From Coriobacteriia bacterium (GTDB lineage: Bacteria; Actinomycetota; Coriobacteriia; WRKU01), in contig WRKU01000013.1 of NCBI GenBank assembly GCA_009777935.1, positions 1 through 45,857 on the forward strand: 45,857 bases of DNA, in the 5' to 3' direction. Shown here one piece after another: positions 21,350 through 23,159 of this stretch. Numbering within the stretch: position 1 is the stretch's first letter; every line of letters begins with the position of its first letter. The position numbers and the translations under genes were made by a program. The notes under the pieces were generated by a model. The model worked only from the letters and a program-made list of their open reading frames with translations. It searched no databases and was not told the origin of the DNA.

Positions 21350-23098
21350 TTAAGGTATTCGCTTGACCCATAACGCTGGACGCAAAGATATCGTCGTGCT
21401 CGACACACTGGTCGCACTCAGCGCCGTCGTGAACCACGTACCCGCTGCATTAAGATAGCCGAAACCAAAGTCTGCAACACCGGCAAGCCCCACGCCGCTG
21501 CCCGTCGTTGCCGTACCACCACGCGTACGCGCCCACCACGAACGTGAGGTACTCGTTGCCGTGGCATCACGTGCGATGCGCCCCAGTACGGTATTGGTCG
21601 TCGTAACGGCCGCACCTCCCGATCCGGTCGTCTGCGAGTCAGGGAAGTAGTTCATAATCTCGACGCCCGCTAAGGGGAACATCACGATCCCTCCCCCGGT
21701 CAGCGGCTGTGTGTTGGCACTATGGTTCTCCACCTGCGCAGCGCTTGGCCGTGAACGCGCATCCGGAAATCGTGTAAAGTTGACATTCGCCCAGGTAACG
21801 GTGCCGACGTTAGTAAGCCCTTCGACTGCAAAGGTGGACGTCGTCGGCGTCGTTGGGCTGATAAATCCCGTGAAAGACGGAAAAACGGCACGTGCCCTAA
21901 GCTCTGACCCGGCACGCGTATTCCACCATGCATCCACGCCCGTCATCAGGTTCGATTTGGTGCTCGCGCTTCCAGTACGAGACAACCAAAAATTGCCGTC
22001 ACCGGTCGTCTGGTTAAAGCGCGTACCACGATCATAGGTAAACTGTGTCACAAGAAGATCGTAGATGGTTTCTCCGTGTGTGACGGTGGCGATGCGATAG
22101 AACGGGATGCCGTCATAGATAACACGAGAAGGTGGATCGATACGCGACGGCGTCGGACCAATCGGCGCCTGTGGTTCAAGCGGGTCGAGCGGCCAGATAC
22201 TATCGATAACTGTCTTGCCTTGATTGCTTGCCGCAACGAGCGTGATCTCCCCGGCAGCGGTCAAACCGCCGTCACGCATAGCGAACACATCGTCTCGGGT
22301 GACGGCCTCCATCGTCAACGCAATAGCGTAATAAAACGCACTCGTCTCTACGGGAAAATCGGGAGTTGCCGAAACACCCGTCATGAGCGGCAGACTACTT
22401 CCCTCTATTGGCATCGTATAGTAGAAATAGCCATCATCGCACAGTATCCAACGGTCGTCACGTTCATGCGGCAAGGCAGTTTCCCATTGGGCAAATGACA
22501 TCATGTAAGGCTGATCCCACGACCAGTAAACAGCAAACGGATTCATAGCGTCGGCAGCGTGGCCGGTGTTCGGTGCTGCGGCAGCAAGGCTCACTCCGTC
22601 GGTTAAGCCCCGTCTCGACCACTGGGAGGGTGCCACATCGAACCATGCCGTTTGCGTATCGATATATGAACCGCTGCCCCCATCGACCCATGTGGTGGGT
22701 AGAAAAGTCGTATCCATGATGGCTTTAACGCTCGGGATTGGTGGTGCATGACTCCCATCAAGGATGCTCCCACCTGGACCTTGGATGGGCAAAAACTGCA
22801 TGAACTCGGCAGCAGAGATACGCACGATAAACGGGTCTTCGCCAACGTTTTCGACTCGGACAAGTTTTTCCCAGTTTCGTTCATTGATACGTCGAAACGT
22901 ATCGACAAGGAGCGCCGAGGGCATCGGGCCTGATCGTAGCTGGCCGGCAGCGTTCTCGATTATCTCTAATGCAAAGGTGCCGAGCAAAATGAGTAGCAGA
23001 ACGATAAGTAGGGTGACGACGATGGCGGTACGTCGATTAGTGCACGTCGTGCTGCACCGATTTGCGTGTCGTTTGATATCGGTATAGAGGTGCCCCAT
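21350..23098 (-). CDS. Secreted/anchored protein with SipW/TasA-like N-terminus and DUF6273-like C-terminus
   Basis: No specific function is recognised. The 582-residue product has a basic N-terminus and one long hydrophobic segment (about residues 22-43), then a part resembling TasA/BsaA-type proteins that use a SipW signal peptidase: a variable stretch, NWEKLVRVENVGEDPFIVRIS and AEFMQFLP. The middle is polar and rich in Thr, Ser, Gly, Pro and aromatic residues. The C-terminus has SRSWWARTRGG, GVGLAGVADFG and ISLRPALWVKRIP, which fits the WWLRS...VRPALW pattern of DUF6273. No SipW peptidase or second matrix protein is in the window. Probably a cell-surface protein; both domain calls are from pattern memory. 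Confidence 0.65.
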   Translation of the reverse strand: MGHLYTDIKRHANRCSTTCTNRRTAIVVTLLIVLLLILLGTFALEIIENAAGQLRSGPMPSALLVDTFRRINERNWEKLVRVENVGEDPFIVRISAAEFMQFLPIQGPGGSILDGSHAPPIPSVKAIMDTTFLPTTWVDGGSGSYIDTQTAWFDVAPSQWSRRGLTDGVSLAAAAPNTGHAADAMNPFAVYWSWDQPYMMSFAQWETALPHERDDRWILCDDGYFYYTMPIEGSSLPLMTGVSATPDFPVETSAFYYAIALTMEAVTRDDVFAMRDGGLTAAGEITLVAASNQGKTVIDSIWPLDPLEPQAPIGPTPSRIDPPSRVIYDGIPFYRIATVTHGETIYDLLVTQFTYDRGTRFNQTTGDGNFWLSRTGSASTKSNLMTGVDAWWNTRAGSELRARAVFPSFTGFISPTTPTTSTFAVEGLTNVGTVTWANVNFTRFPDARSRPSAAQVENHSANTQPLTGGGIVMFPLAGVEIMNYFPDSQTTGSGGAAVTTTNTVLGRIARDATATSTSRSWWARTRGGTATTGSGVGLAGVADFGFGYLNAAGTWFTTALSATSVSSTTISLRPALWVKRIP

Positions 23099-23135: not shown

Positions 23136-23159
23136 AAAAACACCATAACTAGATGGTGT
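23136..23159 (-). terminator. Intrinsic terminator after glyS
   Basis: On the minus strand the stem ACACCAT-CTAGTT-ATGGTGT (23159-23140) is perfect over 7 bp and is followed at once by a T run (A run at 23136-23140 on the plus strand). It lies 32-55 nt beyond the glyS stop and closes the long lepA-to-glyS run. Confidence 0.8.

Follow-up and report, generated by a model that had tools for sequence, protein, structure and literature searches.

Introduction

DGRs are usually compact cassettes in which one template lies beside the RT. In the DGR of BPP-1, the template RNA is flanked by avd and a structured spacer (PMC12875486), and in that of Treponema denticola ATCC35405, seven dispersed targets are served by one RT (PMC4891356). 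Thiohalocapsa PB-PSB1 has nine DGR loci with 15 targets and 21 VRs (PMC10907252), DGRs with several templates have already been reported (PMC6642488), and the method of one survey would, by its own account, overlook remote targets (PMC8144416). In the open-access literature we found no paper in which DGRs are linked to proteins of the SipW/TasA type or to switching by poly-G.

The gene considered here lies in the window, by which we mean the whole 45,857-nucleotide stretch analysed from a Coriobacteriia bacterium (contig WRKU01000013.1 of assembly GCA_009777935.1), whose genome sequence comprises 1,106,534 bases on 21 contigs and is 86% complete (labels C4 to C18 denote its contigs). It probably encodes a constitutive, non-diversified surface protein of a lineage-specific family, with a SipW-type signal/anchor, an N-domain resembling BsaA/TasA and a C-domain resembling DUF6273, the latter probably of the C-lectin binding type. 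Its paralogues invite comparison with the systems above. As in T. denticola, there is one RT with several remote surface targets, but here the targets number at least ten, have a SipW/BsaA-type N-domain and poly-G tracts, and are accompanied by twelve template-like elements instead of one template. The RT, Avd and a template repeat with a structured spacer behind it are shared with BPP-1, whereas the template-spacer-like RNAs are here dispersed in twelve copies, away from avd-RT, with one end resembling a promoter and the other a terminator. Thiohalocapsa PB-PSB1 likewise has many targets per genome and evidence for trans action, yet it has nine DGR loci and only one RT was found here. What is new is the combination, together with the dispersed template-like RNA genes, and all of this is outside the window.

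The Window Gene and Its Surroundings

The open reading frame is intact, has 582 codons and occupies exactly positions 21350-23098 on the minus strand. Its features, and those of its immediate surroundings, are as follows:

21350-23098, minus strand: gene for a 582-aa exported protein, probably a static member of a SipW/BsaA plus DUF6273-like family (from the ORF and its paralogues)
22964-23035, minus strand: N-terminal hydrophobic segment, SipW-type signal/anchor, residues ~22-45 (from the sequence and paralogue alignment)
22184-22921, minus strand: BsaA/TasA-like N-domain, residues ~60-305 (from TIGR04090 via paralogues and identity to the C17 paralogue)
21353-22111, minus strand: DUF6273-like C-domain, residues ~330-582 (from identity to C17:3243-5450 and DUF6273 matches in paralogues)
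21353-21547, minus strand: equivalent of the paralogues' DGR variable repeat, residues ~518-582, without DGR signature (from codon comparison)
23140-23159, minus strand: terminator-like hairpin and T-rich tail between glyS and the window gene (read from the sequence)

The motifs on which the earlier note had based its description of the protein, namely an N-terminal hydrophobic anchor (TAIVVTLLIVLLLILLGTFA), the NWEKLVRVENVGEDPFIVRI motif and a WW.R...LRPALW end, are all present. The hydrophobic segment, whose counterpart in the aligned paralogues is LLLLLLGAFAW, falls within a helix (residues 2-56) of an otherwise low-confidence single-sequence structure prediction (pLDDT 34.9). The N-domain contains NWEKLVRVENVGEDPFIVRI along with a DDGYFYY motif and is 47% identical to the C17 paralogue, and residues 303-578 have 53% identity to the C17:3243-5450 paralogue (E=9e-88). 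The housekeeping surroundings were also correctly described, with glyS (TIGR00211, E=9e-220) and glyQ upstream on one side and a convergent gene for 5-formyltetrahydrofolate cyclo-ligase (TIGR02727, E=5e-33) on the other. A candidate for the glyS terminator that had been proposed is visible by eye, as a hairpin followed by T-rich sequence at 23140-23159, although a consensus terminator scanner did not list it.

Relationship to BsaA, TasA and DUF6273

The same note had matched the N-terminal part of the protein to TasA/BsaA matrix proteins and its C-terminus to DUF6273, and both attributions hold through the paralogues rather than for the protein itself. Against TIGR04090 (BsaA), the window protein reached 14.3 bits (E=0.024), short of the curated cut-off of 60 bits; a Pfam search up to E=10 returned no family, DUF6273 (PF19789) included; and TasA/camelysin (PF12389) had no match anywhere in the genome, in a search that detected the B. 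subtilis control. The best paralogue N-domains match TIGR04090 with E=1e-7 to 3.8e-9 (top score 36.6 bits, all tested members being below the 60-bit cut-off), and, of 17 members, 8 have a C-domain that matches DUF6273 (E=3.4e-4 at best). Three sites in the genome are barely above the DUF6273 cut-off, including C9:50256-50576 and C17:1104-1451, and the matches are confined to the model's final part. The two-domain reading, with a SipW/BsaA-type N-part and a DUF6273-like C-part, is upheld by homology to the paralogues.

With the BsaA family (TIGR04090) and TasA/camelysin, the window protein has in common an LLG(T/A)FA-type hydrophobic N-terminus, N-domain homology by way of its paralogues, and a SipW-like peptidase in the genome; it differs in that its family has an additional C-terminal DUF6273-like domain and in that its gene is away from sipW. 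With DUF6273, it shares the C-terminal WLRSP/WWxRSRG...RPALW core, and its paralogues match the model, whereas the window protein is without a match and the other matches in the genome are partial and near the cut-off.

The reported absence of a SipW neighbour is right as to position, the window gene not being adjacent to sipW, but a search of the genome found a SipW-like peptidase on C8, in a same-strand row of genes at C8:39947-47049:

C8:45754-47049: SipW-like signal peptidase (TIGR02228, 75.8 bits, cut-off 51.85; SipWBacil model, E=1e-16)
C8:42396-45764: 1122-aa pilin-like protein with a streptococcal-pilin isopeptide-type repeat just under cut-off
C8:41317-42483: short BsaA-like protein
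C8:39947-41074: short BsaA-like protein

A second, weaker SipW-like candidate is on C16. Given the gene on C8, a partner peptidase exists and the window gene is merely elsewhere, and the suggestion that the protein might have a distinct processing route loses its footing in a genome with a SipW-like signal peptidase and ~25 paralogues.

A Family of Paralogues with Poly-G Tracts

Those paralogues also mean that the protein is not the orphan it had been taken for: tblastn against its own genome produced 44 matches (best E=1e-125), corresponding to ~25 paralogues, and ORF extraction recovered 24 loci with the N-domain, plus one truncated where its contig ends and another that has just the C-domain. 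Many contigs end in or beside family copies, as would be expected if the repeats broke the assembly. In an alignment of 17 members, many W, D, G, Y and P residues are kept throughout, and many paralogues have an extra inter-domain segment of ~100 aa, with weak PKD/Ig-like matches in some. Elsewhere, the only homologue among genome contigs was one weak locus (in a Flavonifractor MAG), and there were none among viral contigs. Within the order, the N-domain is present, besides the source genome, only in genomes G008 and G001, and the source genome's DGR-type RT is absent from all 13 other genomes. G008 encodes, on several contigs (e.g., L011 and L105), at least ~9 proteins that share mainly the N-domain, with open frames to ~1000 codons; the RT is absent from it.

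In the ~343 kb made up of the window and the family regions, almost every tract of G>=8 is either ~20-30 nt past a family member's ATG or a short way upstream of a member. Most paralogues carry a tract, mostly G10-G13, just past a start codon, and tracts occur in the starts of ~15 of them (e.g., C9:45743, C17:3258 and C14:4120). The placement is typical of phase-variable genes and suggests on/off slippage; most of the assembled tract lengths close the ATG frame, and little should be read into lengths from an assembly of this kind. The window itself has no tract of G>=8.

A DGR Signature in the Paralogues

A codon-by-codon comparison covered the final ~60 codons in ten paralogues, with differences computed within two subgroups. 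In the variable end, the differences at codon positions 1, 2 and 3 were 0.31, 0.30-0.31 and 0.20-0.21, against 0.12, 0.09 and 0.37-0.40 upstream of it in the same ten genes, an inversion of the pattern that normal coding evolution produces. The hypervariable codons number 22; their third base is 91% conserved and is C or T in 21 (NNC/NNT). At least ten paralogues have variable ends with this DGR signature, their third bases matching the consensus in 17-22 of the 22 codons, while paralogues on C5, C8 and C18 are, like the window gene, without the type-A signature.

The sole RVT_1 match in the genome is at the following locus:

C10:2392-4094: RT and Avd-like gene of the DGR

The RT matches PF00078 above cut-off and has the motifs LGNQSSQ and YMDD; in DGR RTs the motif is [IVL]GxxxSQ, the position that LGNQSSQ occupies. 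Among solved structures it is matched best by 8ub7, 'Reverse transcriptase' (E=4e-23), which we take to be a DGR complex, and the Avd-like gene directly upstream matches NF033474 under cut-off (E=0.0075). The RT has relatives with 33-41% identity in a set of 400 genomes of the class, and three of them have clear TR/VR pairs, in which 14 of 14, 20 of 22 and 12 of 13 mismatches are at template adenines; two further relatives had no TR/VR pair within the short stretch examined. An adenine-rich template for the type-A variable repeats was not found in the 86%-complete assembly, and there was no convincing template near the RT, in C10:1-6500. With the type-A template missing from the assembly, adenine-specific change in the type-A genes is not directly demonstrable. 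The codon pattern and the RT locus, read from the sequence of one genome as opposed to a population, look like a genome-level DGR acting on the paralogue ends in trans.

Dispersed Template-Like RNA Elements

A genome-wide search with their 3' part revealed twelve dispersed non-coding elements (type B) of ~380-430 nt, whose spacers start at these positions:

C4:49103, one element
C6:2582, 5227 and 37819, three elements
C7:52850, 53904, 55065 and 55999, four elements (the C7:52850 copy is shortened on its 3' side)
C9:48046, one element
C11:46372, one element
C14:2847, one element
C17:1670, one element

Each has TGYTACACTAGC at its start and an outer helix (GGAATGAGTT/AACTCATCTCC); the core reads ..QWLRSPGTNATTAARVNNNGTV...GVRPD in translation, and after it come the structured spacer and a hairpin on the 3' side, the start being promoter-like and the finish terminator-like. 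In the spacer structure, 99.3% of cells are paired, and four pairs have compensatory changes, all within one hairpin. The element core has GVRPD at its end, where the coding copy at C10:1-139 has GVRPALW, and the same contrast between template and target is found in related DGRs (the L116 template has GVRPDL; in L120, the template has VPDC and the target VPAC). Run over 65 foreign loci (475 kb), a covariance model made solely from the elements gave one match, at the template-spacer junction of the L116 DGR, with E=0.017, such E-values being rough and the model's first positions being the template end itself. L116 also has a matching arrangement of complementary arms around its template, and we consider the covariance match good but not final evidence for reading the elements as templates. 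Their cores differ at positions 1, 2 and 3 by 0.21, 0.17 and 0.06, a coding-like pattern in non-coding sequence for which rewriting and copying from the targets are the only explanations we can offer. Rfam had no match for the element, and its sequence was not found in viral contigs.

Two other identities were considered for the type-B elements. That they are protein-coding genes was rejected, as several copies have stops and frame-breaking indels, and silent VR cassettes are less likely, given the structured spacer and an end in the template-type GVRPD, not the target-type GVRPA. At C7:52800-57300, four elements alternate with small toxin-antitoxin-like genes (assigned by eye) at ~1 kb spacing, in the manner of a cassette array, and at C9:50601 and C14:3874 there are collapsed elements in which the start motif nearly abuts the 3' hairpin, the core and spacer being absent.

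A tentative overall reading, to which we would give a little less than even chances, is that of a distributed DGR: one RT/Avd pair works with at least 12 stand-alone template-RNA genes, scattered among the targets and toxin-antitoxin-like modules, to serve ten or more remote surface targets, which are poly-G-switched as well, with the templates maybe being rewritten too.

The Window Gene as a Probable Fixed Member

In its equivalent of the variable end, the window gene has the consensus third base in 6 of the 22 codons and a C or T end in 12, and its third-position differences from its nearest siblings are 0.71-0.76. There is no RNA element adjoining it. It is neither a recent type-A DGR target nor tract-switched, and since it has no tract, no RNA element and no NNC/NNT variable codons, it is most likely a constitutive, non-diversified member with one fixed surface. 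Export would be via a SipW-type route, placing the N-domain in a surface or matrix layer and exposing the C-domain, with its putative C-lectin fold, as a ligand-binding tip. In the diversified paralogues, this tip would be randomised at ~20 codons by retrohoming of adenine-mutated cDNA, the single DGR on C10 (RT and Avd) rewriting their ends in trans with template-like RNAs from the dispersed elements, and poly-G slippage would switch most of them on and off; in the window protein, the tip would stay fixed.

It could be argued that the window gene, too, is under active diversification by a DGR, through a different, unassembled template and as a member of a third repeat type. The FGFG...TISLRPALW subtype is indeed common to the window gene, C14:138-2177 and C17:3243-5450, the latter two have 57% identity in the variable end as against 78% elsewhere, and template sequences are missing from the assembly. 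We nevertheless think this unlikely, as it is the third positions in which the window gene differs most from its siblings, the opposite of what a recently rewritten repeat would have, only 12 of the 22 expected codons end in C or T, and there is no template match. Alternatively, the protein may be a TasA/BsaA-like matrix-fibre subunit with a structural, non-binding C-domain, which would suit both the homology of its N-domain to the BsaA family and the SipW gene row with its pilin-like and short BsaA-like proteins. This too seems improbable to us: the DGR signature of the paralogues is located in that very domain, which points to recognition, and TasA itself is not known to have such a domain. 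That the gene is a decaying relic of the family, stranded in a housekeeping locus, would account for its divergent end and for the lack of a poly-G tract and RNA element, but is hardly credible for an intact frame of 582 codons that keeps the family-invariant residues. Upstream of the variable end, moreover, its differences from siblings at positions 1 and 2 (0.27 and 0.30-0.34) are far below those at the third (0.62-0.66), as expected under purifying selection and against a pseudogene.

Significance

A very small genome appears to spend a few percent of its coding capacity on a surface repertoire of the SipW/BsaA type, one that pairs a signature of targeted hypermutation with phase-variation tracts and possibly with many separate template genes. 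If true, this would offer a natural setting in which to test how DGRs act in trans and how templates evolve, with the window gene as the family's fixed, unswitched reference.
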